Translations under genes and position numbers: made by a program | From: Nitrospirota bacterium | GTDB taxonomy: Bacteria; Nitrospirota; Nitrospiria; JACQBW01 | DNA: 64,000 nucleotides | NCBI GenBank assembly: GCA_016194305.1 | Contig: JACQBW010000025.1 | Coordinates: 1-64,000 of the forward strand | Reading direction: 5' to 3' | Part shown: positions 1,669 to 17,558 of the stretch, piece by piece | Position numbering within the stretch: position 1 is the stretch's first letter | How the letters are laid out: each line of letters starts with the position of its first letter | Notes under the pieces: generated by a model | What the model saw: only the letters and a program-made list of their open reading frames with translations | Databases searched by the model: none | What the model was told of the DNA's origin: nothing

Positions 1669-1693
1669 CTTATTCGTATTCCCCAATGTCCGA

Positions 1694-2383
1694 TTACATC
1701 GACATGAATTGACCAAACTTACTTTTGACTTCGTCAATCAATTCTTCCGATATTTGAACAACTCCTTTTTCCATCGCCATACGCTCGATCTCTTTTTTCG
1801 CCAACGGTCTGATAAATCCGGGAATATTTTCAAGTTTCTGACTCGCTCCGGCCGTCCATTCAAAACCGGCCTGGTCATTCTTGGATTCATCAATGACTTT
1901 GGGCGTAACCACCTGGTAACCCTGCTTTTGCGCAAAGGCCTCGATTCCACTCTTGACCATCGGTCTGACAAAATCCGGGATCTTTTCCATTCTTTCCAAT
2001 GCTTCCGGAGACCAGGTGACTTTGGGGACTTCCCCCTCTTTCATTCCAGCGAGCATCGAGGAGAAGGGACATTTTCCCGCTTCCGCGGCAACCTGTTCCT
2101 GCACGGGAGACTTCGCCACCGCAGGTGGCGATGACGCGATGGGTGTCTGCGAAGATTCTTTTAATGTACCCCGCGTCAATTCGAATGGTTCCGGCTCAGT
2201 TGTCCTTCCGCCCAATTTGACACCGAGGGCACTGACCATCTGCGTTTCTCCCGGATTGGTGACCATGGCTACCCGGCTCCCACAGGTCGGGCATTCAAAC
2301 ATCACCCCGAGTGAGTCTTCTCCCGGTTTTTCCACTTTTTGAAATAACATAAAGGCTTCGCACTTCATACAAACAAACTTCAT
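1694..2383 (-). CDS. Zinc-ribbon protein with two PCP_red-like domains
   Basis: A 229-residue protein. Residues 1-55 form a metal-ribbon module with CMKC (5-8) and CPTC (31-34), the spacing of a small zinc ribbon or rubredoxin-like knuckle. A proline/alanine-rich linker follows (about 60-105). Two PCP_red-like modules then lie at about 122-168 and 173-222, with VTWSPEALERMEKIPDFVR and FEWTAGASQKLENIPGFIR. A lone CPF motif sits at residue 105. It is the first gene of the minus-strand trio that also encodes the haem-oxygenase-fold enzyme and the four-domain PCP_red protein. No signal peptide or membrane segment is seen, so it should be cytoplasmic. The domain match is by eye; the biochemical role is unknown. 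Confidence 0.8.
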   Translation of the reverse strand: MKFVCMKCEAFMLFQKVEKPGEDSLGVMFECPTCGSRVAMVTNPGETQMVSALGVKLGGRTTEPEPFELTRGTLKESSQTPIASSPPAVAKSPVQEQVAAEAGKCPFSSMLAGMKEGEVPKVTWSPEALERMEKIPDFVRPMVKSGIEAFAQKQGYQVVTPKVIDESKNDQAGFEWTAGASQKLENIPGFIRPLAKKEIERMAMEKGVVQISEELIDEVKSKFGQFMSM

Positions 2384-3699: not shown

Positions 3700-5421
3700 A
3701 TGCCGAATCCAGAAGAGCTCGATAAGAAATTTCGTGAAAGTGAAACCCGCTTTCTTGCCATTACCTCCCTGATTCCCGACGCCATTATAACCATCAATTC
3801 GCAGCATCAAATTACGTTTTTCAGTCCTGGCGCAGAAATAATCTTTGGATATAAAGAGCGTGAGGCCGTTGGTCAACCACTCGACATTCTTCTCCCTGCC
3901 CGATTTATCGAATCCCACGCAAATCACATTCAAGATTTTGAAAATCAACATCACAATTCTCTCACAATGGATTCACGCAAATTAACCCTCATCGGACGCC
4001 ATAAGAATGGCCGCGAGTTTCCGGCCGAAATTTCTATTGTCAAATGGAAGCGTCAGGGTGAAATTTTTTTTGCAGCGCTTGTAAGAAATATTACCGATCG
4101 GATCCGGAACGAAGAAACCATCCATCGCCTGGCATACTATGACACCCTTTCCGGTCTCCCAAGCCGTATTCAATTTATGGAAAGACTTCAGGAGATAATC
4201 AGAAATGTCGCAGGGGACAAGCAGCAATCGCTTGCCATACTTCTCCTCGACCTTTCAAGATTTCAAGAAATCAATCAGTCTCTCGGTTCAGGTTACGGAG
4301 ATTCTTTAATAAAAAGCGTTGCGCAACGGATCAGAGAGAATATTCATGAAAATGATTTCCCAGCAAGGCTGGGGGGGGATGAATTCGGAATTATTCTGAA
4401 ATCGGATGCCGAGCATGCTTTTTCAGTTGCGACAACACTTTGCGAAGCCATGAGAAAACCATTTAAAATCGAAAACTTTCCGCTGGTTGCGGAAGCTTCC
4501 ATTGGCATTTCTCTTTTTCCTGAGCACGCCATGACCCCGGAAGGACTTATTCAAAAGGGAGAAATTGCACTCTCCGAATCAAGGCGAAGCGGAACCGATT
4601 TCTCGATCTATGAATCGAAAAAAGATCCTTTCATCAATTCCAATCGCCTGGGTCTCCTGGGTGAACTCTCGCACGCGATTGACTCGGGTCAGCTCTTCCT
4701 CCTCTATCAACCCAAGATCGATCTGCGTTCCGGGAAGATTATCGGAGTGGAATCCCTGATCCGATGGAAGCACCCGAAGCGCGGGGTCATCCTTCCGTCG
4801 GAATTTATCTCTCCCGCTGAAAATACTGATTTAATCAAGAGTCTCACCCTCTTCGTCATCAAGGAAGCACTAAACCAGTTTCAGACCCTTTTCAATCTCG
4901 GAAAGAACCTCAATATCGGGGTCAATATTTCCACACGAAATCTTCACGATCCGGTCCTGCCAGGCCAAATTGTAAAAATGCTCATTGCGAACAAGATCAC
5001 TCCCGAATCACTTGAACTTGAGATTACCGAAAATGCGATCATGGAATATTCGGAAAGTGCCCAAAATGTCGTCCAGCTTCTGCAACGAGCGGGTATCCAC
5101 TTAACGATTGACGAGTTTGGAATCGGATATTCTTCACTCAACATCCTTAAGAAACTCCCTATTCGGTCGCTGAAAATCCCGCGCTCGTTTATCAAAGAGA
5201 TCTCAACCGGAAAAGAAGACCTAAAAATCGTTCGATCGATTATCGACCTGGCCCATTCTCTTGAACTCAAAGTCACCGCAGTGGGCGTGGAGGACAAAGT
5301 AACACTCTTGAAACTGATTGAATTGGGGTGTGATTCGGCCCAGGGACATTATATGAGCCCTCCGATCCCGATTAAGGAGGTTTTTGGCATGATATTTAAA
5401 CCTCTGGAACATTGGATCTAG
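3700..5421 (+). CDS. PAS-GGDEF-EAL cyclic-di-GMP signalling protein
   Basis: A 573-residue cytoplasmic protein with a PAS sensor (about 12-135), a GGDEF diguanylate cyclase domain (about 140-305) and an EAL phosphodiesterase domain (about 315-570). The cyclase signature is intact (RLGGDEF, 223-229), with metal-site residues D184 and N192 present. In the EAL domain the signature reads ESL (E351). The asparagine of VNIS, the EITE glutamate, K492 (LKIP), E531 and Q548 are present, but the usual DDFG is DEFG (D471-E472) and LKID is LKIP. Phosphodiesterase activity may therefore be altered. No membrane segment is seen. The stop overlaps the convergent DUF420 gene by 4 nt. PilZ proteins elsewhere in the window could read its signal. 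Confidence 0.95.
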   Translation: MPNPEELDKKFRESETRFLAITSLIPDAIITINSQHQITFFSPGAEIIFGYKEREAVGQPLDILLPARFIESHANHIQDFENQHHNSLTMDSRKLTLIGRHKNGREFPAEISIVKWKRQGEIFFAALVRNITDRIRNEETIHRLAYYDTLSGLPSRIQFMERLQEIIRNVAGDKQQSLAILLLDLSRFQEINQSLGSGYGDSLIKSVAQRIRENIHENDFPARLGGDEFGIILKSDAEHAFSVATTLCEAMRKPFKIENFPLVAEASIGISLFPEHAMTPEGLIQKGEIALSESRRSGTDFSIYESKKDPFINSNRLGLLGELSHAIDSGQLFLLYQPKIDLRSGKIIGVESLIRWKHPKRGVILPSEFISPAENTDLIKSLTLFVIKEALNQFQTLFNLGKNLNIGVNISTRNLHDPVLPGQIVKMLIANKITPESLELEITENAIMEYSESAQNVVQLLQRAGIHLTIDEFGIGYSSLNILKKLPIRSLKIPRSFIKEISTGKEDLKIVRSIIDLAHSLELKVTAVGVEDKVTLLKLIELGCDSAQGHYMSPPIPIKEVFGMIFKPLEHWI

Positions 5422-6137
5422 TGAATGGGAGGCCAAAATACGTAAAGCATAAAATAAGTGGCACTGCTCGTAAATAGAGCGGTCAGGTAAAGGATCATGG
5501 TAAATGTTCCCAACGCCCGATGCCTTTTGGCTCCATCGGGGAAAAGATAGCTGATGCCCCCCTCCAATGCGATCAGCAACAATCCACCTCCGACGCAAAG
5601 CGAGAACCAGGCAATAAATAACCCGAGACTCGGGGGCCTGAATAGGATCCGAAGCGAAAACAGGATCAGCGCCAGCAGAATCGAGACTCCAAACGTCAGG
5701 AACGAAAATCTTTTGAAAGTTAGCGAAGGCACTCCTTCCCGAAGCACTCTTTTCCCCTCCTTCATGCCGGATGACCTGAATCCTAAAAGGATCATATAGA
5801 CTGCCAGGATGATTCCGATCGTCACCACCCAAATGTGGATCGTCAGGATGGGTGAAAATAGCCATGAATAAAGGAAATCTCCGCCTCCGAATCCTTCCTT
5901 ATTTTCGAACGCAACAGCTCCCAACTCCCGGGCGAGATAATAAATCACGAAATAACCGAGCATGGCAACCATTCCGACGAGCGTCAGGGTATGGTGGGAC
6001 TGTCCCAGGCCCTTCTTGGCTTTAACCCATCCCAGCATGAACAAGAAGGTGAAGGCTATTGCCAGGAGATAACTGAGATCTGCTCCGAAAGTGCCGTAGG
6101 GTGAGATGAACCCGCTCTTTTCAAATAAACTTTTCAT
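5418..6137 (-). CDS. DUF420-type multi-span membrane protein
   Basis: A 239-residue protein with six to seven membrane spans. Histidines in QSHHTLTL, the LTIHIW span and KRHRALGTFT match the conserved-histidine pattern of DUF420 (PF04238; YozB/CtaM type). CtaM-type members help make active haem-copper oxidases in Firmicutes. Here the neighbours are c-type cytochromes and a bd-like oxidase, so a role in oxidase assembly or haem handling is a reasonable inference. The ATG is preceded by AAAGGA at a good distance. It lies 24 nt after the thioredoxin-like gene and probably shares its transcript. An insertion between the third and fifth spans makes it longer than the shortest DUF420 proteins. Confidence 0.75.
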   Translation of the reverse strand: MKSLFEKSGFISPYGTFGADLSYLLAIAFTFLFMLGWVKAKKGLGQSHHTLTLVGMVAMLGYFVIYYLARELGAVAFENKEGFGGGDFLYSWLFSPILTIHIWVVTIGIILAVYMILLGFRSSGMKEGKRVLREGVPSLTFKRFSFLTFGVSILLALILFSLRILFRPPSLGLFIAWFSLCVGGGLLLIALEGGISYLFPDGAKRHRALGTFTMILYLTALFTSSATYFMLYVFWPPIH

Positions 6138-6161
6138 TTGATCGTCCTTTCATGGCGACAT

Positions 6162-7235
6162 TTATCCAAATGTAAAAGAATAACTTTCTACTCCTGGTTC
6201 AAAAAGGATTAACGATAGAAGATGCTTGCCATACCCGCCCTGGTGGCGAATAATCCGATAGAGTTTTTTTTGCGAAACAAAGACTTTGCTCCTCCCCTCC
6301 GAGTCGATCACGATATCCTCCCCGGCCTCTTCAGAATTTAAGTAGTGGCGGTCTAGCATGACTTCCACCCAGATCCCGTTTTGATTTGTCCCTGCTACCC
6401 AATTGACGCTCTTGGCATCATAAATTAGGCGGACTTCCCCTCGCTCTCGCCCTGTGTAAAGCGCAAATTGGTCCTGGATATTCCAGGAGCCGGACAAATA
6501 GAACGCATTTTCTTCAAATTGCGGGGGAAATTGATAGGGTCGTCCCGAACCTGAAAGAATCCCGAGCGGATTTCCAATGAAACCGCCATGAAATGTGCCA
6601 AAAAAGATTTCGGGGGTTTTGATTTTCTGAAACTGGACCTCTTCTCCGGCCATCCGGTTTAAGTGATCTTTTTTGAATTCGACCCCGGTTTCAGTAAGAA
6701 GCTCCTGTATCTTATCCTCCGATTCGTCATACCGTCCTTCGCCGACCACTTCATATCGAAGCGTGCCATCCGGGCCAAAAAAATATTTGTGCGGCCAATA
6801 ATGATTTCCAAAAGCATCCCAGGTCTTTTTCTGGTTGTCGAGACCCACCGCATATTTTATTTTGAGGAAAGAGACCGCTTCTTTCACTCTTTCAACCTCT
6901 TTTTCAAATGTAAATTCGGGAGTATGAATGCCGATAATGACAAGACCCCGATCATGATATTTGTCATACCAGTCATTCAGATATGGAATGGTCCGGATAC
7001 AATTAATGCAACTGTAGGTCCAAAAATCAACAATAACGACTTTTCCTTTTTCCCGGGAGACGGCCATCGGAGAGGAGGTGTTCAACCACTCGTCAATGCC
7101 CTGAACTTCCGGCCCGATCTTCTGTTTTACCGATTCCCCACCTATTTGAACCAGGAGGAGAGGTGCAAGTCCCACGACAATCATGACAATCAGAAGATAA
7201 AAGAGGGCTCTGGCATTTGGGATTCTTTCAAACAC
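6162..7235 (-). CDS. Membrane-anchored TlpA/DipZ-type thioredoxin-like protein
   Basis: A 357-residue protein with an N-terminal membrane anchor (about 10-30), a periplasmic thioredoxin domain (about 40-185) and a C-terminal beta-sandwich of the type found at the end of DipZ (Thioredoxin_10-like). The active site reads CINC, within the FWTYSCINC context typical of DipZ-type thioredoxins. Such proteins reduce or exchange disulphides in the periplasm and often serve cytochrome c maturation, keeping CxxCH cysteines reduced. The position next to three cytochrome c genes supports that. The start is GTG; the frame closes just upstream and no other good start precedes the anchor. An intrinsic terminator separates it from the cytochrome genes upstream. 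Confidence 0.88.
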   Translation of the reverse strand: MFERIPNARALFYLLIVMIVVGLAPLLLVQIGGESVKQKIGPEVQGIDEWLNTSSPMAVSREKGKVVIVDFWTYSCINCIRTIPYLNDWYDKYHDRGLVIIGIHTPEFTFEKEVERVKEAVSFLKIKYAVGLDNQKKTWDAFGNHYWPHKYFFGPDGTLRYEVVGEGRYDESEDKIQELLTETGVEFKKDHLNRMAGEEVQFQKIKTPEIFFGTFHGGFIGNPLGILSGSGRPYQFPPQFEENAFYLSGSWNIQDQFALYTGRERGEVRLIYDAKSVNWVAGTNQNGIWVEVMLDRHYLNSEEAGEDIVIDSEGRSKVFVSQKKLYRIIRHQGGYGKHLLSLILFEPGVESYSFTFG

Positions 7236-7271
7236 ATCCCTATTTTACTTCAGTTGATTTCAGGAATCTGC

Positions 7272-7304
7272 AAAAAAAAAGGGAGGGTATATCAATACCC
7301 TCCC
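7272..7304 (-). terminator. Intrinsic terminator after the cytochrome c operon
   Basis: A perfect 10-bp stem GGGAGGGTAT/ATACCCTCCC (7281-7304) with a 4-nt loop is followed, on the minus strand, by a run of nine T (7272-7280). It lies 29 nt past the stop of the dihaem cytochrome gene. Confidence 0.9.
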
Positions 7305-7332
7305 GATCAACTCATGATGATTAACAGTTAAA

Positions 7333-9039
7333 CTATTTTTTACCGAATTTTCGTCTCAACCAGAATTCAATTCCAATGACGACGATGACAACCACCACGG
7401 GAACCGAATAGACTTTTGAAGGTACCGGTGGTTTCAGAATCGTATAATACCAGGTGGAAATGGCTGTTTTGGCTCCTTTATCGCCATTGTTGCCATCCCA
7501 GGCATAAAACGAAGTCGGGATAAACTTGCCCGTGCTAAATTGAACGTCATTGTCTTTGTCCCCGGTTTCGCGGCTTCTTTTCAAAATAACGCGCCATCGT
7601 CCATTTGAGTAGTCCGAGGCGATCGCTTTGACATCCTGGGCCTCTCGACGGGTTAATGGACTCGCTATCCCTTTTCCTGTATACTCGGCGACACCGCCAC
7701 TGGCATCCCATTTCCAGATATCCGCTGGATTTTTTTCATCTCCAAAAATGAACCTCGGTTTTTCCGGACTATTTAACGCTTCCCATTTTTGAGGAAACTG
7801 TATACCGACAGAATCATTAAATACCGTCCAGCCGTCGCCACCCTTAACGGCAACAGGTTCTCCCGCAGGTGGCACTTCCTTGACATCTGCCGGTTGCAAC
7901 TCATAATTCCCGGCTTCCGCAGGTCCGACACTCTTGTTTCGATCATCCCATTCCAGAAGATAAGCGACTTCTTTATCGTTATAAAGAGATCTGACCCAGA
8001 CTTCGTCCACTAACCGGACAAAATTCCTCGGCTTCTCGGTAATCTGACCTGCAAGTCCCACCCAGGTGGCTTCTGTATCAGCCCACGCGTTGCTGTTCAA
8101 ATCACCCGAAATTTCCCCTTGCGTAAAGCTGGATTTCACGACAAAGTCAATGGCCGGTTTATTGGTATTCCTGTCAATATTTTTCTTCGGACAGAGCGAG
8201 ATCACAAAATTGGCGACATTCCACCGCTCCTCAATACTCAAGGCGTCAGCGAAACTCGGCATCGGTGTCCCGTTCAAACCGGTTGAAACTTCTCTGAAAA
8301 TATTCTTGGGATTATAAGGGTCTTCACGATTACCTCTGAAATTCCAGCATTTGTGGAGATCAGCGGGGAAGATCGGAAATCCCCATTCATCTTTCTGGGT
8401 TTTATTGCCATCTCCGCGCCCTTCGTTACCATGGCACTCGACGCATTTCCCCTTGGTCATGAAAACTTCTTTTCCTTTTGCGAGACTATCCGCAGAAGTC
8501 GAGATCTGCTTTCCAAAATCAATCACATGGAACTCTTCGGTATCTTTATCGAGAAAATTCCGATCTTTCACCAATTCCGTTCTGACAAACCGGACCACCT
8601 GCAATCTCTGGGTATCAGACAGAATACCTCCCCAGGGTGGCATCGCTGATCCGGGAAGACCGTGGGTTACCGTTAGAAAAAGATCCTGTTCGGTGGGTAA
8701 CTCCCCTGACCCCGTATGTCGAATTTTGAAGGTTCCAGCGTTGAAATTTCTCGGACGAGGCCAAAGCCGATCCGCAGCCGGACCGTCGCCAGCGCCCTGG
8801 GGACCGTGACACCAGACACATTTCTTGAAATAGATCGCTTTTCCGGCTTCCAAATCTTCGGGACTGGCCTTATCAGGACGTCCGGATTGGGCAGCGGCAG
8901 CAGTCGGTTTACCGGCATCCTTCCCTTTGTCATCGGCTGAACTGACCGCGATCAGCAAAAAAGACGCTGCAAAGAAGACCCCTGCAAGGATCAAAAAGAA
9001 GAACTTGTTTTTATTTCGAGAGCCATTCACTTTATTCAT
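7333..9039 (-). CDS. Dihaem cytochrome c fused to an ethylbenzene-dehydrogenase-type haem domain
   Basis: A 568-residue exported protein with a signal peptide or anchor (about 11-34). Two cytochrome c domains follow with haem sites CVWCH (74-78) and CVECH (199-203) and likely methionine ligands in AMPPWGG and PMPSFAD. From about 285 to 540 there is an EB_dh-type domain (PF09459), the haem-b-binding fold of the gamma subunit of DMSO-reductase-family dehydrogenases, including the nitrite oxidoreductase NxrC type. A C-terminal span (about 545-562) followed by basic residues anchors it. The ATG has AAGGAGA about 9 nt upstream. No molybdopterin catalytic subunit is encoded nearby, so here it is more likely an electron carrier for the oxidase than a dehydrogenase subunit. 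Confidence 0.88.
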   Translation of the reverse strand: MNKVNGSRNKNKFFFLILAGVFFAASFLLIAVSSADDKGKDAGKPTAAAAQSGRPDKASPEDLEAGKAIYFKKCVWCHGPQGAGDGPAADRLWPRPRNFNAGTFKIRHTGSGELPTEQDLFLTVTHGLPGSAMPPWGGILSDTQRLQVVRFVRTELVKDRNFLDKDTEEFHVIDFGKQISTSADSLAKGKEVFMTKGKCVECHGNEGRGDGNKTQKDEWGFPIFPADLHKCWNFRGNREDPYNPKNIFREVSTGLNGTPMPSFADALSIEERWNVANFVISLCPKKNIDRNTNKPAIDFVVKSSFTQGEISGDLNSNAWADTEATWVGLAGQITEKPRNFVRLVDEVWVRSLYNDKEVAYLLEWDDRNKSVGPAEAGNYELQPADVKEVPPAGEPVAVKGGDGWTVFNDSVGIQFPQKWEALNSPEKPRFIFGDEKNPADIWKWDASGGVAEYTGKGIASPLTRREAQDVKAIASDYSNGRWRVILKRSRETGDKDNDVQFSTGKFIPTSFYAWDGNNGDKGAKTAISTWYYTILKPPVPSKVYSVPVVVVIVVIGIEFWLRRKFGKK

Positions 9040-9090
9040 TGAAAGTATTCTCCTTAAAATACTACTAAATTACTTCAAATCATTAATGGA

Positions 9091-10011
9091 TTAATCCCAG
9101 GTTCTTGGATAATAACCGGTATGCCAATATTCAAATTCAATCACTTTCCAGATTTCATCGGTGGTCAAATGTTTTTCCCAGGGCGGCATGGCAGATGCCC
9201 AGGGGAATCCCTCTCGGGGAAGGCCAATTCCTCCTTTTGCAACACGCCAGAAAACGAAAGTCTGCTGGAGCTGGGCAAGCGTCCCCGGATCCGTAAAGTT
9301 TGCCGGAATGGGATTAAAGGCGAATGCGAACATCCCCGCGCCATTTAAATTGTCCCCATGACAAAAGTGGCAATTTTGAAAAAAGATCTCGCCCCCTTCG
9401 CGCACATATTTCAGATAGGCGACCCCTTTATCATCGAAAGGATTTGCCTTCAGATAGCGATCTTCGACTTTTTCATCATAATCCCCTTTTTCATTGACCC
9501 GGAAAGGACTCCTTGCCTTTTGCAAAATCAGCTCAGAACCATGTACCTGAATCGAAGCGGGTGGCGCCGGATGAACCGTTCTCAATTCAATCGGTTCCTG
9601 ATATTTTGGATACATATAATTGTAAGAGCCATAACCTGCCAGAACCGGAACCAAGACAAAGGTGACCATCCGAATGGTCTTAAATCTGGGAGAGCCCCCT
9701 TCAAGAGTCTTTACAATGGGATCTTTAAATTCATTCCATGACTGATCGGTCGTCGATAGCAGCAGGAAAACCACCAGCGTAATCAATCCCATGTAGGTAT
9801 AAAGAAGGGCCGCCGGGATCGGGGGGAAAATAATATACTTGAAAATAATATAGGCGGCGATAAGAAGTAAAACACCCTGGAAGAATTTGGAAACCCCTCT
9901 TCCATATACTTTTTTCAGAAAATAATTACCTGCCAAAAACAAAAATAACGCGAAAACTTCGACCAAGATCAGTTCTATGGGCATTGCGCCGGGTATCCAC
10001 AATCCTTTCAC
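9091..10011 (-). CDS. Membrane-anchored monohaem cytochrome c
   Basis: A 306-residue protein with about four membrane spans (11-30, 43-62, 64-86, 113-130) and a periplasmic cytochrome c domain. The haem site is CHFCH (214-218), and SAMPPWEKHLT supplies the likely methionine ligand. The start is GTG, with AGGGGG 8 nt upstream; no better start precedes the first span. It is the middle gene of three adjacent membrane cytochrome genes downstream of the bd-like oxidase gene. The several spans suggest a structural subunit of a membrane complex rather than a soluble shuttle. Its partner is most likely the oxidase, by position. Confidence 0.88.
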   Translation of the reverse strand: MKGLWIPGAMPIELILVEVFALFLFLAGNYFLKKVYGRGVSKFFQGVLLLIAAYIIFKYIIFPPIPAALLYTYMGLITLVVFLLLSTTDQSWNEFKDPIVKTLEGGSPRFKTIRMVTFVLVPVLAGYGSYNYMYPKYQEPIELRTVHPAPPASIQVHGSELILQKARSPFRVNEKGDYDEKVEDRYLKANPFDDKGVAYLKYVREGGEIFFQNCHFCHGDNLNGAGMFAFAFNPIPANFTDPGTLAQLQQTFVFWRVAKGGIGLPREGFPWASAMPPWEKHLTTDEIWKVIEFEYWHTGYYPRTWD

Positions 10012-10112
10012 CGCATTTCCCCCTCTTTAATTAATCCTATATTAATTTGTCTATTTGAAAATCACGACCTCTCACATTTAAGGAAAGATCGTGCGATTTA
10101 TGTCCAGCCCGA

Positions 10113-11264
10113 TTACGGGAGCAACCCATCTTTTTTAGCGACCGATTCGTCAATAGATAACAGGAAATCAGCCAGGTTTGAAATTGCCTCATAGGTCATT
10201 TTTTTTGAAAATTCTTTTGGCATCGGGGATTCATCCTTTTTAGGTCCCTGTCCAAACGTGGGAACAATGAAAGCGTTCGGATTAACGATCGACTCCATGA
10301 CATATTCCTTGGGGCTCATAGCATGCGCTTGTCCTGCCGCAACTCTTGCCTTATATTCCGGCGAAGCAATTCGTTTCTTTGCATTGGTTCCCTCCATCAG
10401 GAGAGGGCCAACCGTACCAAAACGGGCTGCGGTGGTTGGAATCTTGTGGCACGCAATACAGCCCATCTTCATAATAATATCTTGCGGTTTATCAGCGCCG
10501 GTCAAAATAACAGGGCCAGACGGTTTAGGAGCTCCACCCGCTGTATCTGTACCGGGTTTAGGTCTTTCCGCTTCCGGAATAAACTTTTCATAGGCGGATC
10601 TTATCTCTTTCGCTGTGGGGGGTGTGGCGCCTTCCCGGACAAATAACCAGGTATCGACGGCGATCTGCTCCTCAATAGAAAGCTCAATCGGGGCCTTATG
10701 GATTGTCGGCATCGGACTTTCTTTATCATTCGATCCTTTTACGCCATAGCCTGGAACCACAAAACAGGAGGGACAGGAGTGGGATTCGGCAATATACTCC
10801 TCCGCGGTTGTAGCTCTTCCGCAGCCCGAACAAGACTCTTTGACGCTAGTGACTTGAGTCTTATAGATTGGATCTTTAATTCTTTCAGCGGCTCGGGCCG
10901 GAATTCCCGCCAGATTAGGCGCTCTTTCACTCACTACGCCGGCAAAGAATCCATGACAGAGGGGACATTGCCCCTTACCCGCTCCTTTTAAGGCTTTGGC
11001 GTCATCAAAAATGATTGACGCCCCCATTTCCGCAAGTTTATCGGAAGGCATCGCGTCGACATCCAGTTTTGATGTATCAACCGGGGCTGGTACTTCTCCT
11101 CTGGTTTGGGGCAACCAATTGGCATAGCTCGCAAAGGCTCCCGTGACCAGCATATAGAATCCGATTGTAAAAACCAAGGATCTGCCGGACTTTAACTTGG
11201 ATGCAATGGCCAGAACGGTAAACGCGATTGCAAGAAGTAACAACGCAAAAGTCATCTTATCCAC
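10113..11264 (-). CDS. Membrane-anchored dihaem cytochrome c with an inserted four-cysteine site
   Basis: A 383-residue protein with two N-terminal spans (about 5-24, 29-47) and two cytochrome c domains with haem sites CPLCH (100-104) and CIACH (269-273). Methionines in ESPMPTIH and ESPMPKEF are likely sixth ligands. Between the first haem and its methionine lie CSGC (145-148) and CPSC (164-167), without the histidine needed for haem. They look like a small zinc- or iron-binding knuckle, or a lost haem site. The start is GTG with AAGGAG 9 nt upstream. It is the first of three cytochrome genes and lies just past the oxidase terminator. Probable role: carry electrons to the bd-like oxidase. Confidence 0.88.
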   Translation of the reverse strand: MDKMTFALLLLAIAFTVLAIASKLKSGRSLVFTIGFYMLVTGAFASYANWLPQTRGEVPAPVDTSKLDVDAMPSDKLAEMGASIIFDDAKALKGAGKGQCPLCHGFFAGVVSERAPNLAGIPARAAERIKDPIYKTQVTSVKESCSGCGRATTAEEYIAESHSCPSCFVVPGYGVKGSNDKESPMPTIHKAPIELSIEEQIAVDTWLFVREGATPPTAKEIRSAYEKFIPEAERPKPGTDTAGGAPKPSGPVILTGADKPQDIIMKMGCIACHKIPTTAARFGTVGPLLMEGTNAKKRIASPEYKARVAAGQAHAMSPKEYVMESIVNPNAFIVPTFGQGPKKDESPMPKEFSKKMTYEAISNLADFLLSIDESVAKKDGLLP

Positions 11265-11342
11265 TGAATATCTCTCCTTATGACGGGTTTACTGATGATT
11301 GCTTATATGAGTTCAATTAATATCTATTATCAAGCCGATTTT

Positions 11343-11381
11343 TAAAAAGAAAGGCCTTTTATTTTTCAAATAAAAGGCCTT
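11343..11381 (-). terminator. Intrinsic terminator after the bd-like oxidase gene
   Basis: A perfect 14-bp stem AAGGCCTTTTATTT/AAATAAAAGGCCTT (11351-11364 and 11368-11381) with a 3-nt loop and a downstream T-rich stretch on the minus strand. It starts 9 nt past the oxidase stop codon, separating the oxidase from the cytochrome c genes. Confidence 0.88.
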
Positions 11382-11389
11382 GACATCCC

Positions 11390-13321
11390 CTACTCAGACG
11401 CTCCCGCAATGGCATGCCCGTGTCGACCCGCTGTTTTCGCGACAGGACTGTCTTCCATTGAAGGAACTTCACGGTGACCGGACGAGAGTTCTGCCAGAGA
11501 GAAAACGAAAAGCGTGAAAATCCAGAATATAATCACATTGACGGACATCATATTCGACGCGAAACCGATCGGATGCGTAAACGCCCAGGGAGAATTATCT
11601 CTCATGATTTCCATGACATGCCAAAAAAGGCGGACGGAAGAGCGCACATAACCCATCAGAGCCATCAGCCAGGTAAATGAAACCGCCAAAGCAAAAATCG
11701 CAAACTGAGAGCGATTCGATATGGTTCCCCAAAGAACAGGACCGGTTGATTTAGCCCCCTTCATCATCGCCACATTAATAGCCGTACCCACAAAAAGGCA
11801 GGTTAAAGTGCCGGCGACCTGAGGAACCGATAGGCCAACCCTGACGTTTGCTGGAATATAGTACCCATAAATCGCTAACCACCAGTTATTTGCCAAAGCA
11901 ACCCCAAACATCGTAAAGAGCATCGCGTTTCCAAAGTTTTTCCATTTTACGGTAATCTCTTTATTGGCACGCTGATAGATAACAAATGTCAAAACCGTCA
12001 GGATAAGCATGGTATTTACAGCTCCGTTTTTGGCGGACATCACGCCAAAATTACCCACAACAGGATGCTGCTGACCGCCAATCGCTTTAAGTTCCGAACC
12101 GGTCATCACGAGCGTGTGAGGGGTTAGCCAGACCAGGAAAGCCGCCGTCACGCCAAAAAAGATATATTTGGTTATTTTTTCATACCGCTCGGCCCCTTTC
12201 ATTCTCTGCATGCCATTAAACAGGTAATAAATTACCGAAAAGAAGAGGGACCCGATCAACACCGCCTGAAGAATGAAGAGCCAGGCTAACAGCCCTCCCA
12301 TTAATGTAATTCCCATCTGTTGACGGTAAGCGTAAACTTCTCTCATCAGCCAGTATCCGGCAAAGGGAAGGGGAATCAGCGAACCGACTGCAAAGAACAT
12401 CGAAATGTAACCCATCCAGTCGTAATAAGCTTTCTCTTCTTTCGTCTTGGATGAAAGAAATTTATAAGCCGAGTAAGCCGCCACGATACCACCGCCAAAC
12501 ACCATATTTCCAATAATCCGGTGGACGTTAATCGGATTCCACAACGCACTGTGGAGAAGATGGGCATAATTACCTAAAAACTGTCCTTTTTCATCCACCC
12601 CCGCGGGAGACATCATATAAGAGAGCCATGAATTAGCCAACATCATGAGAATCGTTCCGAAAACATTCAAAAGAATACCGAGGGTGGCGTGAACCCATTT
12701 CAGGAATCCTTCTTCCATACGATGCCATCCATAATAGTAGAGGTAAAGCGTGCCACTTTCGGCGAGGAAGAGTAATGCGTAGATATGCATAAAGGGTCTA
12801 AAGAGCGAAGCAAGGTAGGCAAAAAATCCCGGGTACATGGTAATAAACGTAAAGATCAGAAGCCCCCCTAAAATCGCAGTAACCGAATATGCCGTCAAAC
12901 TGATCTTGATAAAATCATAGGCGAGCTGGTCATATCTTTTCGAAGCAACCGGATCTTTGGTCAATAGGCCAATCAGCTCGATGACCATGCAAAAGATTGG
13001 AACAGCGAGGACAAAGCTCCCGAAATAGAGATGTTGCTGTCCGATAACCCATACAATCAGGCGGCTCTCTTTTGCAACCCCCGGAAGATTCGGCATTGGA
13101 TAATCGCCTACTTTCAATTTTGGTGCCGGAGGGCCGGACACCGGACCTTCGTTCTTGTAATAAACATCCTTTCCCATGACTGGCGCCGCCGGAGCAGCCG
13201 CTTCATCGGCATACGCTTTGGACTGGAAGAAAAGAGGAATCGCAAAGGAAAAGAGTGAAAGAAACAAGATTCCCAGAAGAGCAAGGGAGAGAAAATTTTT
13301 TGATTTTTTAAGGGCCTTCAT
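11390..13321 (-). CDS. Cytochrome bd-like oxidase subunit I (CydA-like, extended)
   Basis: A 643-residue membrane protein with a cleavable-looking leader (1-38), a short periplasmic segment and about 13-14 spans. By eye, several CydA landmarks align: GQQHLYFGS (H97, like CydA H19), LAESGTLYLYYYGWHRM (E188 in the place of E107) and NVHRIIGNMVFG (H267, like H186). The GRQPW quinol-binding loop of true CydA is absent, and roughly five extra spans lie at the C-terminus. This matches the bd-like oxidases described in Nitrospira and relatives, proposed to take electrons from cytochrome c rather than quinol. No CydB homologue is seen. The ATG has GGAG 7 nt upstream. Tiny membrane-protein genes precede it and an intrinsic terminator follows. 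Confidence 0.88.
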   Translation of the reverse strand: MKALKKSKNFLSLALLGILFLSLFSFAIPLFFQSKAYADEAAAPAAPVMGKDVYYKNEGPVSGPPAPKLKVGDYPMPNLPGVAKESRLIVWVIGQQHLYFGSFVLAVPIFCMVIELIGLLTKDPVASKRYDQLAYDFIKISLTAYSVTAILGGLLIFTFITMYPGFFAYLASLFRPFMHIYALLFLAESGTLYLYYYGWHRMEEGFLKWVHATLGILLNVFGTILMMLANSWLSYMMSPAGVDEKGQFLGNYAHLLHSALWNPINVHRIIGNMVFGGGIVAAYSAYKFLSSKTKEEKAYYDWMGYISMFFAVGSLIPLPFAGYWLMREVYAYRQQMGITLMGGLLAWLFILQAVLIGSLFFSVIYYLFNGMQRMKGAERYEKITKYIFFGVTAAFLVWLTPHTLVMTGSELKAIGGQQHPVVGNFGVMSAKNGAVNTMLILTVLTFVIYQRANKEITVKWKNFGNAMLFTMFGVALANNWWLAIYGYYIPANVRVGLSVPQVAGTLTCLFVGTAINVAMMKGAKSTGPVLWGTISNRSQFAIFALAVSFTWLMALMGYVRSSVRLFWHVMEIMRDNSPWAFTHPIGFASNMMSVNVIIFWIFTLFVFSLAELSSGHREVPSMEDSPVAKTAGRHGHAIAGASE

Positions 13322-13415
13322 ATTGGACTCCGTTTAATGATTAAAGTTCTTAATCGTGTTTTGGTCCTCTTCTTATAAGCTTAAACCGCGATCTTACGAT
13401 CGCTTTGGGTCATCG

Positions 13416-13544
13416 TTAAAAAACTGATCGGATAAATTCAAAATATTTCAAACCCTGAACACCCATGAGAAGCCAGTCGACAACTTGAAAATAAACAAAC
13501 CATACCGCGACAGCTACGACGACTCCTGCGATCATGTTATTCAT
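13416..13544 (-). CDS. Single-span 42-residue membrane protein upstream of the oxidase gene
   Basis: A 42-codon frame starting MNNM, with a hydrophobic span at about residues 4-20 and a short amphipathic tail ending in SVF. A GGGGG ribosome site lies about 7 nt before the ATG. The gene sits 94 nt upstream of the bd-like oxidase gene on the same strand. Known bd oxidases carry tiny accessory subunits (CydX, CydH/CydY, CydS) encoded beside cydAB. By size, topology and position this could be an analogous subunit, though no sequence similarity to them is claimed. Ribosome site plus context make it likely real. Confidence 0.65.
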   Translation of the reverse strand: MNNMIAGVVVAVAVWFVYFQVVDWLLMGVQGLKYFEFIRSVF

Positions 13545-13605
13545 AAAAAACCCCCGTTTTTAATAAAACCAAAATAAGGAAATCGCCTTGAAAGATCATG
13601 AAGCT

Positions 13606-13689
13606 TTATAAGGTTCCAAACCAGAAAATAAATAAAACTGAGATGACAAAAGTGACGATATAAAGAATGGGTCCGGCGTTTTTTGGCAT
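13606..13689 (-). CDS. Single-span 27-residue membrane microprotein
   Basis: A 27-codon frame (MPKNAGP, then a hydrophobic span at about 8-24, ending FGTL) with a strong GAGGAA ribosome site 5-6 nt before the ATG. It is the first gene downstream of a consensus-like promoter and precedes the 42-residue membrane protein and the bd-like oxidase gene, all on the minus strand. A membrane peptide this short is common among oxidase accessory subunits (CydX is about 37 residues, CydH about 30). Ribosome site, promoter and hydrophobicity support it; function is inferred from position only. Confidence 0.62.
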   Translation of the reverse strand: MPKNAGPILYIVTFVISVLFIFWFGTL

Positions 13690-13815
13690 TTTTTCCTCGT
13701 CTTGAATTGACTTATTTTTAATCTACTTCTATTCGATTTGCCCGCCCTCTTTGTCGTGCAAAAAGTGTCTCCGGCTCCAGTGTAAAAGCGGATGAAATAG
13801 ACTTTATGCGAGGGG

Positions 13816-13844
13816 AATGTACTACACTGTTTTTTTTTTGTCAA
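13816..13844 (-). promoter_or_regulatory. Sigma70-type promoter for the bd-like oxidase unit
   Basis: On the minus strand TTGACA (13844-13839), a 17-nt spacer and TACATT (13821-13816) point toward the 27-residue gene about 125 nt away. The -35 box is perfect and overlaps the last codons of the upstream SUMF1-like gene, so the oxidase unit can be transcribed separately. Confidence 0.6.
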
Positions 13845-14752
13845 GCACTTTTCGCACATCGAAAACCAATGGTCACGTCCCGATATTCCGGCGTCATTTT
13901 GAACCTGTTAACAACCTCTCCGAGCCGGATTGTATCATTCCAGGATCCGCCCCGGATGACCTTGAGTTGGCCCCTGTCGGGACCTTTTGGATCGATGGTT
14001 TCGATATTTTGGTATCCGTTTTCCTGATACCAATCGTTGACCCATTCCATCGCGTTACCCGCCATGTCATATACGCCAAGCGGACTCTTATCCAGTTTGA
14101 AACTGCCGACAGGCGCCGTATAGAAATACCCGTCCCGTTCCCCGGAAAAATTTGCATTTTGCGGGAGCTCCTCATCGCCCCATGGCCATTTTCGTTGCAC
14201 CTCCCCTTTCGCGGCTTTTTCCCACTCCGCTTCGGTTGGAAGACGTTTCTTTTTCCAGTGACAATAATCCTTTGCATCCTCCCACGAAACCCCGACGACC
14301 GGATTAAAAGGATTCATGAGAAGCGGAAGGCCTTCAGAACCCACAGCGAGATACCCGGCCAGACGGGGCTTCCGATGCCCGGTCAGGTCCACAAACTGAT
14401 AAAATTGTGCAAAGGTGACTTCATATTTATCGATGGTGTAAGCACTTAGGAAAATTTTACGAGCGGGATGGACCGAAAAATCAAGCGAAGCGTCGTCTCC
14501 GAGCGTAAAATAACCCAATGGTATGTGAACCATCGTTTCAAGCTCGGGATTCGGTTTCACCCGACGGATATTCTCTTCCGATTTGGCAAAATTCTCTTTC
14601 GTTTTCTTAATTTTTTCCGAAAGCGGGGTGAATCCTTTTTCCGGCTGGAGTGAGCTAACCGAGGGGTGATTGCCTTTATAAATTGAATATTGGATAATTC
14701 CGACAAATACGAACATCAATCCGATATAGATCATGACGAGGTATTTGCTCAA
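13841..14752 (-). CDS. Membrane-anchored SUMF1/FGE-fold protein lacking the catalytic cysteines
   Basis: A 303-residue protein with an N-terminal membrane anchor (about 4-24), a charged linker and a periplasmic SUMF1 domain (FGE-sulfatase, PF03781) at about 70-300. Landmarks include MVHIPLGYFTLG, EVTFAQFYQF, RLPTEAEWEKAAKG, YDMAGNAMEWV, VIRGGSWND and TIGFRCAKSA. In active formylglycine-generating enzymes the segment after RGGS holds two copper-binding cysteines; here it reads NDTIRLGEVVNRF without cysteine. It should therefore not make formylglycine, and no sulfatase is nearby. A binding or structural role beside the oxidase is inferred. The start is TTG, about 11 nt after a GGAGG site that lies past the preceding small gene. 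Confidence 0.85.
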   Translation of the reverse strand: MSKYLVMIYIGLMFVFVGIIQYSIYKGNHPSVSSLQPEKGFTPLSEKIKKTKENFAKSEENIRRVKPNPELETMVHIPLGYFTLGDDASLDFSVHPARKIFLSAYTIDKYEVTFAQFYQFVDLTGHRKPRLAGYLAVGSEGLPLLMNPFNPVVGVSWEDAKDYCHWKKKRLPTEAEWEKAAKGEVQRKWPWGDEELPQNANFSGERDGYFYTAPVGSFKLDKSPLGVYDMAGNAMEWVNDWYQENGYQNIETIDPKGPDRGQLKVIRGGSWNDTIRLGEVVNRFKMTPEYRDVTIGFRCAKSA

Positions 14753-14769
14753 CTCAGGTCATACCTCCG

Positions 14770-14907
14770 TCAGCGCCCGGTCGATTGATCTTTGTCGAAT
14801 TCTTTCTGGGTGTTCTTTCTCTCGAGCCATTGCCCTGCAAAAAGACCTGCCAGGAATACCGCCGCGGCGTAAAGACTCACATACAGAACATATAGAAGAT
14901 GTTTCAT
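14770..14907 (-). CDS. Single-span 45-residue membrane protein
   Basis: A 45-codon frame beginning MKHLLYVLYV, with one hydrophobic span (about 3-26) followed by a hydrophilic, charged tail (WLERKN onward). It lies 13 nt after the 72-residue gene and 17 nt before the SUMF1-like gene, so it is the third of four closely packed minus-strand genes. No homologue is recognised. The tight packing and clear one-span topology, with a charged cytoplasmic-type tail, support a real gene. Confidence 0.6.
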   Translation of the reverse strand: MKHLLYVLYVSLYAAAVFLAGLFAGQWLERKNTQKEFDKDQSTGR

Positions 14908-14920
14908 CGGAAAACGTTTC

Positions 14921-15139
14921 CTAAGATAGGGGTTTCTGATTCCTGTTTCGATGTTCTTTCATTTGGCTTAACCAACGTTTCTCGGACCTTTGACCATACT
15001 GCATTCCAAGCAGGAAGAAGGTGGAGGTAAAGAGGATCATATATCGTATATAAAGTTTGCCGAAGATCTGGTCAATCACAATCACCGCAAGGGTCATGAC
15101 TAAAAAGAAGTGAAGGTAGAATTTACCTTTAAAGCTCAT
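14921..15139 (-). CDS. Two-span 72-residue membrane protein
   Basis: A 72-residue protein with two hydrophobic segments (about 7-25 and 29-47) and a basic, hydrophilic C-terminus rich in R, K, N and Q. It starts 8 nt after the stop of the 48-residue gene, so translation is probably coupled. No family is recognised. It belongs to the four-gene unit ending in the SUMF1-like gene, which suggests a small membrane complex of unknown role in the respiratory locus. Confidence 0.65.
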   Translation of the reverse strand: MSFKGKFYLHFFLVMTLAVIVIDQIFGKLYIRYMILFTSTFFLLGMQYGQRSEKRWLSQMKEHRNRNQKPLS

Positions 15140-15147
15140 CCGAACGC

Positions 15148-15294
15148 TCAGGCTTCCCGATTATTAAAACGCTCTATCTTGTTCCGTTCCCATTTTTTGC
15201 CAACCTGAAAACCCAGATAGAAAAAAAAGGAGGTCATCGCAATAACAGCCAGGGGATAAAGGAGGTAATGACCGATTTTTGAATAATAATCCAT
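15148..15294 (-). CDS. Single-span 48-residue membrane protein, first gene of the SUMF1 unit
   Basis: A 48-codon frame starting MDYYSKIGHY, with one span at about residues 10-30 and the charged tail KKWERNKIERFNN. It is the first gene after a near-consensus promoter whose -10 box ends 33 nt upstream. The one-span-plus-charged-tail layout resembles the 45-residue protein two genes downstream; the phrase FQVGKKWERN here and FAGQWLERKN there suggest the two are distant duplicates. This similarity is by eye and weak. No known family is recognised. Confidence 0.62.
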   Translation of the reverse strand: MDYYSKIGHYLLYPLAVIAMTSFFFYLGFQVGKKWERNKIERFNNREA

Positions 15295-15326
15295 GCCGTG
15301 TTAGACCTGTAATTTTGAAAAGAGGT

Positions 15327-15356
15327 ATTATATTGAAATTGTGCGATGAACGTCAA
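15327..15356 (-). promoter_or_regulatory. Strong sigma70-type promoter for the small-protein/SUMF1 unit
   Basis: On the minus strand TTGACG (15356-15351), an 18-nt spacer and a perfect TATAAT (15332-15327). It faces the 48-residue gene, whose ATG is 33 nt past the -10 box. Confidence 0.7.
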
Positions 15357-15463
15357 GAAATGAAATTTGAACTTGACTCGATTTCAAAAGAATGTCATTT
15401 TATAAAAATTCTTCGACGTTGAGACAGGGCGCTTCTTTGTAACTGGGTGAGGAATGAGGAATC

Positions 15464-15592
15464 ATGGAAACTGAAATTAAAGACAAAAAATCAAGGAATA
15501 AGATTATATTTGATTATATCGTTTTGCTAGGCATGGTCGTCAATATTGTCATTGCCGTTTTTATGGTCCTCTATTATTTTAATTTGTTATAA
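15464..15592 (+). CDS. Single-span 42-residue membrane protein
   Basis: A 42-codon plus-strand frame with a lysine/asparagine-rich N-terminus (METEIKDKKSRNK), one hydrophobic span (about 15-38) and a short tail YYFNLL. A GAGGA ribosome site lies 5 nt before the ATG. It is transcribed divergently from the small-protein/SUMF1 unit and converges on the second SUMF1-like gene. The charged N-terminus followed by a span predicts an N-in topology. No family is recognised. The ribosome site and clear topology argue that it is real, though its isolated orientation lowers confidence. Confidence 0.5.
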   Translation: METEIKDKKSRNKIIFDYIVLLGMVVNIVIAVFMVLYYFNLL

Positions 15593-15633
15593 CAAATATT
15601 CCATGAGCGTCCCGGATCGACGCGAGCCCCTAT

Positions 15634-16533
15634 TTATGATCCTGCCACATCTTTCGCACAACGGAATCCAATGACCGCGCTAGTCTGGTGCGGTGCCGCC
15701 TGAAATCTCTTGGCGGTTCTGACATTGGTCAGGACATCCTCCCAACTCCCGCCGCGATACACTCTGAATTTTCCGCTTTCAGGCCCTTTTGGATTTTTGA
15801 ACGGACCGGACAAATAATAAGAACCGTCGTACCAGTCTGCCACCCATTCTCCAACATTTCCGGCCATATCATACAATCCGTAGGGGCTTCTTCCCGCTTC
15901 GAACTTTCCCGGGGGAGCCGTATATTTGAAATGGTCCTCTTCACCCTGAAGATTGGCTCTACCCTCCAAACCCTCGTTTCCCCAGGGCCACTTTAGACCC
16001 CGTTCACCTCTTGCCGCTTTTTCCCATTCTGCTTCGGTTGGAAGTCTTTTCCCCGCCCACTTGCAGTAGTCATTGGCTCCGTCCCAGGAAACGCCATTTG
16101 CCGGAAGCTCTTTTGAAGTCAATAATGCAGGGTTATCCATAAATACGGGAATGACCAACTTGGATTTCGATCCAATTCCTTTTAAATAATTCTGAAACTG
16201 CCCATGAGTCACTTCTTTAAGATCGATATAATACCCCGATAAATAAATTGTCCTCTGCGGAGATTCATCCGGATCACCTTCTACGGGAGGAGATCCCATT
16301 GCGAAAGTCCCCTCCGGAATCCACACCATCAGGGCATCGTCTACCCCTTTGATGGTTTTGAATTCCTTAAATCGGTCGGGATTCAACGCCTCGGCCTGCA
16401 TCTCCTTGACGGCAGACTGACGCTTCCCTCTCCCGACGAAATCTGAAACTGCAAAATAAATAAAGGTGCCGATCATCAGAACAAAAGCCGCACCGGCAGA
16501 GATAATTCCGTAATAGAGGGCATCTTTTTTCAT
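15634..16533 (-). CDS. Second membrane-anchored SUMF1-fold protein lacking the catalytic cysteines
   Basis: A 299-residue protein with an N-terminal anchor (about 8-30) and a SUMF1 domain (about 65-295), the same plan as the protein at 13841-14752. Landmarks are MVWIPEGTFAMGS, EVTHGQFQNYL, RLPTEAEWEKAARGERG, YDMAGNVGEWVADW, VYRGGSWED and VIGFRCAKD. After RGGS the sequence VLTNVRTAKRF has no cysteine, so formylglycine synthesis is not expected. The two proteins are clearly paralogous. No ribosome site is obvious before the ATG, and an intrinsic terminator of the upstream cupredoxin gene ends only 15 nt away. Expression may therefore depend on read-through. Role unknown; the respiratory context is shared. 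Confidence 0.85.
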   Translation of the reverse strand: MKKDALYYGIISAGAAFVLMIGTFIYFAVSDFVGRGKRQSAVKEMQAEALNPDRFKEFKTIKGVDDALMVWIPEGTFAMGSPPVEGDPDESPQRTIYLSGYYIDLKEVTHGQFQNYLKGIGSKSKLVIPVFMDNPALLTSKELPANGVSWDGANDYCKWAGKRLPTEAEWEKAARGERGLKWPWGNEGLEGRANLQGEEDHFKYTAPPGKFEAGRSPYGLYDMAGNVGEWVADWYDGSYYLSGPFKNPKGPESGKFRVYRGGSWEDVLTNVRTAKRFQAAPHQTSAVIGFRCAKDVAGS

Positions 16534-16547
16534 AAATTATTCGACTT

Positions 16548-16588
16548 AAAAAAAACAGGCTGAGACAAGAAGACCTTGTCCCAGCCTG
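16548..16588 (-). terminator. Intrinsic terminator after the cupredoxin-like gene
   Basis: A stem of 14 bp with one mismatch, CAGGCTGAGACAAG/CTTGTCCCAGCCTG (16556-16569 and 16575-16588), with a 5-nt loop and a run of eight T on the minus strand (16548-16555). It lies 22 nt past the cupredoxin stop and immediately before the second SUMF1-like start. Confidence 0.9.
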
Positions 16589-16609
16589 AAGAATCCCATG
16601 ACTGATCTT

Positions 16610-17425
16610 TTATTTCGTTGACGCAAAAGCAAAGTTTTGGGTGAGTTTTCCACCCGCTGCCACCGTGACCTTCGCTTCCTGCAGGCCTAAAATCGGATGC
16701 CACGCGTGCACTTCATATTCACCCGGAGGAATCCCGTCAATGCTGAACGTTCCGTCCGCACCCACGATTGCATAATAGGGATTTTCTACCGGATAATAGT
16801 AGGTGTTCATATAATTGTGCTGATCGCACTGCATATGAAGGATGCTGTCTTTCTTCCGGATAATCGTCGGTTTGTTTATGACCTGGTCCTTGTTCGGAAG
16901 AGGAAGATTAAAGATCGTCGAGCTCGAAGAACCGACTTCCTCATAAAGGTGAGGATTATGCAACACGCCCGTTGCCGCCTTGGGATCAGTCGGATCGGCA
17001 TCAAGGTTCTTGACCCGGAATTCCGCTTTCTTCATTGCTACGCCGACGAATTTCGAGGGTCCGCCCTGAACCAGGAACCGGCAAATATCGGCATTCGTAT
17101 CCGTACCGGCGAATTTAAACGGCTTTCCTTTTTCTACATGTTCGATCGCAACCACCACATCCTCTAGCGAGCCATCTTTACCGACATTCACATCATGTAA
17201 AAGGCGATGTCCCTTTCCATCGTTATCTTCTTTTCCGCAATATTTGGGCTGGGGGAATTTCTCAAGTTCAAACGATTTCGGTGCAGGCGCTGCTCCCTTG
17301 AAGGTGACCTTTCCGCTCAGTGTTCCTCCGTTCGCGACGGGCGCTTCGTCATAAGCCCATGCCGGCATTCCAACCATCGCCGACAACAATGTGGCCAAAG
17401 CCACTTTTTTACCAAAACCTTGCAT
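16610..17425 (-). CDS. Secreted cupredoxin-like protein with a carboxypeptidase-regulatory-like end
   Basis: A 271-residue exported protein with a signal peptide ending near PAWA. A cupredoxin-type copper motif CDQHNYM lies at about 203-209, the CxxHxxM arrangement of a family common beside respiratory and methylamine genes. A short beta-sandwich follows, with DGTFSIDGIPPGEYEVHAWH, typical of carboxypeptidase-regulatory-like repeats. It may bind copper and act as a periplasmic electron carrier or copper donor for the neighbouring oxidase locus. The ATG at 17425 has AAAGGAG 6-7 nt upstream; an in-frame TTG 15 nt earlier would swallow that site, so it is rejected. It has its own promoter and terminator. 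Confidence 0.85.
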   Translation of the reverse strand: MQGFGKKVALATLLSAMVGMPAWAYDEAPVANGGTLSGKVTFKGAAPAPKSFELEKFPQPKYCGKEDNDGKGHRLLHDVNVGKDGSLEDVVVAIEHVEKGKPFKFAGTDTNADICRFLVQGGPSKFVGVAMKKAEFRVKNLDADPTDPKAATGVLHNPHLYEEVGSSSSTIFNLPLPNKDQVINKPTIIRKKDSILHMQCDQHNYMNTYYYPVENPYYAIVGADGTFSIDGIPPGEYEVHAWHPILGLQEAKVTVAAGGKLTQNFAFASTK

Positions 17426-17529
17426 ACCTGCTCCTTTCAAAAATAGGGAGAGAAAAATCTCTTTTCTTCTCCCGGTTATATTATTTTTTATTCAGCACTC
17501 CGAAGTCCCAAAAAGAAAAACAGCGTCGC

Positions 17530-17558
17530 AATATAGCGGAAAAATATTCGGAAGTCAA
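17530..17558 (-). promoter_or_regulatory. Sigma70-type promoter for the cupredoxin-like gene
   Basis: On the minus strand TTGACT (17558-17553), a 17-nt spacer and TATATT (17535-17530), about 105 nt upstream of the start codon. Both boxes match the consensus at five of six positions. Confidence 0.6.

Follow-up and report, generated by a model that had tools for sequence, protein, structure and literature searches.

Our analysis of positions 1 to 64,000 of contig JACQBW010000025.1 (assembly GCA_016194305.1, from a Nitrospirota bacterium), the whole stretch that we call the window, shows a locus at 5418-17440 in which the gene for a bd-like oxidase subunit lies among genes for membrane cytochromes c, two SUMF1-fold proteins and six single-transmembrane (TM) microproteins, all on the minus strand except the microprotein gene mp5. 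On balance we favour the view that this locus specifies a cytochrome c-fed, bd-like O2 reductase complex with microprotein subunits and accessory factors. Observed here are its gene content, the CydA fold and conserved heme-ligand histidines of the oxidase, coding conservation, co-occurrence and synteny.

In the direction of transcription the genes are a putative 'cupredoxin', SUMF_A, mp4, mp3, mp2, SUMF_B, mp6, mp1 and the bd-like oxidase, followed by a diheme cytochrome c, a monoheme cytochrome c, alt-NxrC, a TlpA-like thioredoxin and a DUF420 protein, with the plus-strand mp5 between SUMF_A and mp4. The borders of the locus are mixed: the conserved block runs from SUMF_A to alt-NxrC, the TlpA gene keeps its place at the locus end only within the family, and the DUF420 gene is located elsewhere in many relatives. 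The block is not due to chance, since dozens of genomes have it with the same gene order and its microprotein genes have ratios of nonsynonymous to synonymous change (pN/pS) of 0.14–0.30. A preliminary description of the window had proposed a cytochrome c-fed, multi-subunit terminal oxidase; what the genome encodes (G000 below; the same-family genomes compared with it are G001 and G002) is consistent with this, but the parts do not belong to it equally, some being merely local. Its parts list was right in outline, but undercounted the small proteins, was wrong about the SUMF1 cysteines and included a cupredoxin that has no Pfam support.

The oxidase and its published four-gene core

The oxidase gene (11390..13321) encodes a 643 amino acid protein, the catalytic candidate of the locus, which matches the Pfam CydA family (PF01654, E 8e-18) in its first half only (profile positions 11-240 of 418). 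A search of the PDB with a profile of 34 oxidase relatives found CydA chains only. The AlphaFold (AF2) model from 34 sequences (predicted local distance difference test score, pLDDT, 79; predicted template modelling score, pTM, 0.80), which supersedes an earlier model from a shallower alignment (pLDDT 68), gives CydA chains for all ten of its top structural matches; several CydB chains, of the same fold, rank after these. H97 and H267, invariant among the 34 sequences, align with the heme-ligand histidines H19 and H186 of CydA (in 9r2g and 5doq); by its predicted fold and these putative ligands the protein belongs to the cytochrome bd superfamily, in agreement with the preliminary description. 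In both the Pfam and the profile alignments the similarity to CydA stops before the Q-loop region. There is no CydB gene in the cluster, to which the CydB search was confined.

The next three genes encode the three membrane cytochrome c proteins of the preliminary description, with five CxxCH motifs in total. The diheme protein (cytc_B, 10113..11264, PF00034) has N-terminal hydrophobic helices and two CxxCH motifs in every orthologue, and the monoheme protein (cytc_A, 9091..10011, PF13442) has three hydrophobic segments and one CxxCH in every orthologue. The third, alt-NxrC (7333..9039; PF13442, PF09459, TIGR03477), joins a diheme cytochrome c domain with two CxxCH motifs to a DMSO-reductase-type heme-b domain of the ethylbenzene dehydrogenase/NxrC kind and a C-terminal helix. 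Its PDB matches are 6h5l_B (the best, E 1e-48, to the diheme domain), 7b04_C (NxrC) and 2ivf_C, and its second domain resembles subunit C of nitrite oxidoreductase (NXR) and the gamma subunit of ethylbenzene dehydrogenase.

These four genes are already known. The passages of PMC6606698 on Nitrospira moscoviensis describe a cluster, 'bd-like_3/alt_NxrC_2', in which a bd-like oxidase is encoded together with a pair of c-type cytochromes and an NxrC-like protein that has two heme motifs and a TM helix; a further bd-like copy lies a few genes off, and the corresponding genes are among the top 40 by transcription. The order at the N. moscoviensis locus matches that of the window's four genes, and the oxidase, the two cytochromes and alt-NxrC are this published cluster, in line with the earlier remark that bd-like oxidases near cytochromes are known in Nitrospira relatives. 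The counterpart in Nitrospina/Kuenenia, described in part of PMC3578206, likewise has the bd-like protein, the pair of membrane cytochromes c and the diheme NxrC-like protein with its TM helix. The SUMF1 pair and the microproteins, on the other hand, go unmentioned in the relevant passages of these two papers, and, unlike in the N. moscoviensis system, no NXR-like enzyme was seen in the genome of the window, which has a single bd-like gene. The order of the four-gene core is kept across Nitrospirota families and in Nitrospinota. At two loci of another family of the phylum (L170, 2628-4877, and L171, 1021-3318) a single protein of 750–765 amino acids with three CxxCH motifs seems to combine the monoheme cytochrome with alt-NxrC.

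Six microproteins and their distribution

The preliminary description counted five tiny membrane proteins; there are six with a single TM segment, mp1, mp6, mp2, mp3 and mp4 on the minus strand and mp5 on the plus strand, encoded by open reading frames (ORFs) of 27–72 codons. Both mp5 (42 amino acids, 15464..15592, plus strand) and mp6 (27 amino acids, 13606..13689) were discovered by comparing gaps with the same-family genome G002, followed by a profile search of all loci, in which the small-ORF sets of 91 loci matched mp5 (E<1e-3) and those of about 85 matched mp6. The mp6 ATG is preceded by GAGGA. The third member of what we call the trio, mp1 (42 amino acids, 13416..13544, motif YFxxxDxxLMxxQGL), is located 81–127 nt upstream of the oxidase gene in 24 genomes. 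Across loci mp5, mp6 and mp1 have pN/pS values of 0.14, 0.18 and 0.30, respectively, and most changes fall at third positions; by these coding comparisons the trio is under purifying selection. None of its members has a credible Pfam match. A candidate for the fifth microprotein, the 87-amino-acid ORF at 13596-13859, was discarded; of the frames in that region, mp6 is the conserved one.

The remaining three, mp2 (14770..14907), mp3 (14921..15139) and mp4 (15148..15294), form a tandem family with a common FxxGxxxGxxxER helix motif, and their hidden Markov models match the same ORFs. Orthologues of mp2 occur in several families of the class (pN/pS 0.21), mp3 is likewise conserved and mp4 has orthologues; a profile scan of the loci did not find mp2 in the Nitrospira-type ones. 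Between the window and G002 the pN/pS values of mp1 to mp4 (0.21–0.27) are similar to those of the SUMF1 genes. Promoter-like sites lie just before the mp6-mp1-oxidase stretch (13844-13816, minus strand) and just before mp4 (15356-15327, minus strand), hinting at internal transcription starts; the first has 10 and the second 11 of 12 consensus matches, and consensus matching is their only basis.

The small and SUMF1 genes stay with the oxidase in relatives, N. moscoviensis (locus L073) among them, an outcome that the preliminary description would count in favour of a complex. A genome-wide scan gave 80 loci, and among those with enough flank to be assessed the oxidase is flanked by mp1 in 68 of 73, by SUMF_B in 66 of 71 and by SUMF_A in 57 of 64, so it cannot be said that relatives consistently lack these genes, which would have refuted the preliminary description's view. 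The exceptions are shared, namely the lone bd-like copies L114, L126 and L129 and the Nitrospinota loci L142 and L143; two further loci are without SUMF_A alone. In a sample of 118 genomes of the phylum, 42 with an oxidase relative and 76 without, mp1 was found in 28 of the 42 and none of the 76 (Fisher 5e-17) and mp5 in 30 and none (Fisher 1e-18), p values that overstate independence because lineages are shared. Both are single copy in each genome.

Beyond the class, two further families of the phylum have mp5, an mp6-like ORF (identified by position and weak similarity) and mp1 on one strand immediately before the oxidase gene. In Nitrospinota, where mp5 and mp6 have homologues (mp6 E 1e-11), the microproteins do not adjoin the oxidase: locus L142 has the four-gene core only, the flank of L143 has no small or SUMF1 gene, and in these two genomes the trio has a locus of its own, arranged as DUF420, mp5 (reversed), mp6, mp1. 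That the three genes stay together once separated from the oxidase gene is good evidence that they are one functional module, and since the trio travels with the oxidase across two phyla, its products are likely missing subunits or assembly factors of the complex. Comparison of the loci suggests four layers. The oldest is the four-gene core, in which the monoheme and alt-NxrC genes are sometimes fused; the trio, also old, comes second; the SUMF1 pair was added within the window's class (the Nitrospira class); and the most local layer is mp2 to mp4 and the adjoining TlpA and HemY genes.

SUMF1-fold proteins and flanking genes

SUMF_B (13841..14752; PF03781, E 1e-51), which is N-terminally anchored, and the second anchored protein, SUMF_A (15634..16533; PF03781, E 2e-55), are paralogues and were therefore assigned at each locus by best score. 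They had been described as cysteine-less; there are indeed two SUMF1 proteins, but each has two cysteines, outside the catalytic site. Aligned with the human formylglycine-generating enzyme (FGE), SUMF_B has no cysteine at the positions of the catalytic, copper-binding pair, and both cysteines of SUMF_A lie outside the catalytic segment. Canonical FGE function was rejected on the absence of the catalytic cysteines. Anchored and lacking these cysteines, the two proteins probably have a structural role, for which the SUMF1-fold PorK/GldK of the type IX secretion ring (PDB 9mzu, TIGR03525 matches) is a precedent. They were not seen in the lineages examined outside the window's class. The genome has nine SUMF1 genes; at 6404-7402 of locus L150 (G000 contig C3) it encodes a SUMF1-fold protein with an N-terminal segment carrying two CxxCH motifs, which suggests a direct cytochrome c–SUMF1 fusion.

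At the end of the locus, the DUF420 protein (5418..6137; PF04238, 51 bits over a cut-off of 30.5) has the domain named in the preliminary description and, with five hydrophobic segments, the predicted four to five TM helices of a CtaM/DUF420 protein, and is a probable oxidase assembly factor by analogy. CtaM is required to assemble heme A-type oxidases in Bacillota (PMC9145763, PMC4958251), and the likeness lies in a DUF420 membrane protein within an oxidase locus. CtaM, however, is known for heme A-type heme-copper oxidases, and the window's genome is without a full COX1 gene. Among class relatives DUF420 is present in 39 of 40 and COX1 over the cut-off in 9 of 40, so DUF420 here goes with the bd-like system and not with heme-copper oxidases. 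The neighbouring membrane-anchored thioredoxin (6162..7235; PF00578, PF17991) is TlpA/ResA-like with a DipZ-type C-terminal domain, again as first described, and is possibly a cytochrome c maturation factor. The exported protein earlier called a cupredoxin (16610..17440) has CarboxypepD_reg and fn3_3 matches only and none to a cupredoxin in Pfam, so that its type-1 copper site is hypothetical; its gene adjoins or is close to the cluster in several more families of the class. The gene immediately upstream of the cluster encodes an oxygen-type protoporphyrinogen oxidase (HemY; 17566-18939, minus strand, TIGR00562 over the cut-off), also found at the cluster in G002 and at several loci of another family. 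At the start of the window two PCP_red-repeat proteins (45-974 and 1694-2383, minus strand; PF08369, three and two matched repeats) have a TenA/haem-oxygenase-like protein (982-1737, minus strand) between them.

Proposed function and its alternatives

The genome of the window (2.27 Mb, 95% complete) has, like G001 and G002, one CydA-family gene. No full COX1 gene was found in it, only a 126-amino-acid COX1-like ORF below the cut-off that was rejected as a heme-copper oxidase, and G002 (96% complete) has no COX1 match. Within the bd and heme-copper families, to which the search was limited (others, such as alternative oxidase, were not searched), the complex is thus the only terminal-oxidase candidate of G000 and G002 if O2 is respired, and with one CydA-family gene it must then do without another subunit of the CydA type. 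A pair of adjacent COX1-family genes on contig C133 (14605-17558) of G001 (82% complete) is absent from the other two. No NxrA-sized molybdoenzyme was found in G000, and we accordingly drop any link to nitrite oxidation in this organism; its two molybdopterin proteins are a 1574-amino-acid, assimilatory-looking enzyme and the NuoG-like subunit of its complex I cluster. There are also cytochrome b/Rieske genes, which at 3961-14000 of locus L151 (G000 contig C7) adjoin a further SUMF1 gene, a large multicopper-oxidase-like ORF and two proteins similar to the 'cupredoxin' of the window. The complex I cluster, the cytochrome b/Rieske genes and the oxygen-type protoporphyrinogen oxidase gene all count in favour of the function proposed next, as does the high transcription of the corresponding genes in N. 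moscoviensis.

From these sequence comparisons we infer O2 reduction, the direction of electron flow and the physical association of the parts as follows. Periplasmic carriers would reduce the exported heme domains of alt-NxrC (two hemes c and a predicted heme b) and of the diheme and monoheme membrane cytochromes c, from which electrons would reach the b-type hemes in the CydA-fold subunit, the presumed site of O2 reduction. The products of mp1, mp6 and mp5 would most likely be small subunits, or dedicated stabilizing factors, packing on the CydA helices in the manner of CydX/CydS and CydH and, by analogy (PMC8951039), holding the heme site or closing access routes. DUF420/CtaM would help assembly, and the anchored SUMF1-fold proteins would be a later, class-specific periplasmic addition, probably structural. 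A more specific form of this proposal, which we put forward tentatively as a possibility, is a bd-type, cytochrome c-fed O2 reductase of Nitrospirota and Nitrospinota that has neither CydB nor CydA', with one CydA-fold subunit, a multi-heme inlet for electrons in the periplasm and mp1, mp5 and mp6 as obligate single-helix subunits.

Several points weigh against an O2 reductase complex of this composition. According to part of PMC3578206, related bd-like genes occur in anammox bacteria, anaerobes in which O2 reduction is improbable; we found no biochemistry of this oxidase type in the literature, and the protein may have an alternative quinone site. The evidence on the microproteins is genomic, and the Fisher values ignore shared ancestry. 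Moreover, mp5 was undetected in 12 of the 42 oxidase-bearing genomes; in some of these every oxidase gene is divergent, fragmentary or at a contig end, others have truly diverged, and in the one class member with neither mp1 nor mp5 (G118) a contig begins with the oxidase gene. Such absences are not absolute, since the genomes are mostly metagenome-assembled.

The anammox occurrence would also suit a periplasmic-donor:quinone oxidoreductase, resembling alternative complex III and serving reverse electron transport, in place of an O2 reductase. Such a quinone-linked role has been suggested for the bd-like protein of Nitrospina/Kuenenia (in the part of PMC3578206 concerned), and relatives carry one copy of this gene alongside up to seven other CydA-like genes. 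We nevertheless think this role unlikely here, as it would leave G000 and G002, in which no other CydA-family protein and no full heme-copper oxidase was found, as aerobic genomes without a terminal oxidase of those types; the lack of an NxrA-sized molybdoenzyme in the search of G000 also speaks against it. It is doubtful, too, that the microproteins and SUMF1 proteins are transient assembly or stability factors outside the mature complex: the trio does adjoin the gene for an oxidase assembly factor, DUF420/CtaM (PMC9145763), in Nitrospinota, and the SUMF1 proteins are confined to one class among the lineages examined, but single-copy co-inheritance and the fixed position of mp1 before the oxidase gene are equally typical of true small subunits such as CydX. 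Short ORFs that match no Pfam family could in principle be chance or conserved RNA elements, and in a genome with nine SUMF1 genes two might be unrelated neighbours; this is very improbable and is already contradicted by the dominance of third-position substitutions, the low pN/pS values, the recurrence of the block and the persistence of homologues on a changed strand or at a separate locus.

The locus resembles several known systems. The OR-N family of the cytochrome bd superfamily (Murali et al. 2021), in the parts of PMC10839748 and PMC12342949 that describe it, is similar in its CydA-fold protein, nearby cytochromes c and occurrence in Nitrospirota and Nitrospinota. OR-N1 and OR-N2 are proposed there to pair as CydAA', whereas no second CydA-type subunit was found in G000, G001 and G002. 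The TO_1 complex of Ca. Manganitrophus, compared by description and not gene by gene, shares a bd-like protein with a periplasmic cytochrome b and is described as present in other Nitrospirota; a term search of that source (PMC9040806) found no SUMF1 or small protein. The CydX/CydS and CydH subunits of canonical cytochrome bd (PMC8951039) are single-helix proteins of about 30–40 amino acids tied to a CydA-type oxidase, and mp1 is encoded next to one. The microproteins of the window, in contrast, match no family of these subunits, so that homology to CydX was rejected and their role would be CydX-like in function only; three rather than one or two are conserved, and they are encoded upstream, one on the opposite strand. 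In the open literature, our coverage of which is incomplete, neither the SUMF1 pair nor the microproteins turned up in any account; the preliminary description likewise knew of none that joins them to such oxidases.

A step in the global nitrogen cycle is driven by Nitrospira-type nitrite oxidizers, whose terminal oxidase has been inferred from genomes and transcripts alone since 2010. The present analysis gives a concrete parts list for such a complex, with three tiny genes that are readily overlooked in automatic annotation. In near-complete genomes with this complex as the sole bd or heme-copper terminal-oxidase candidate, its composition and the question of whether it is an O2 reductase become directly testable.

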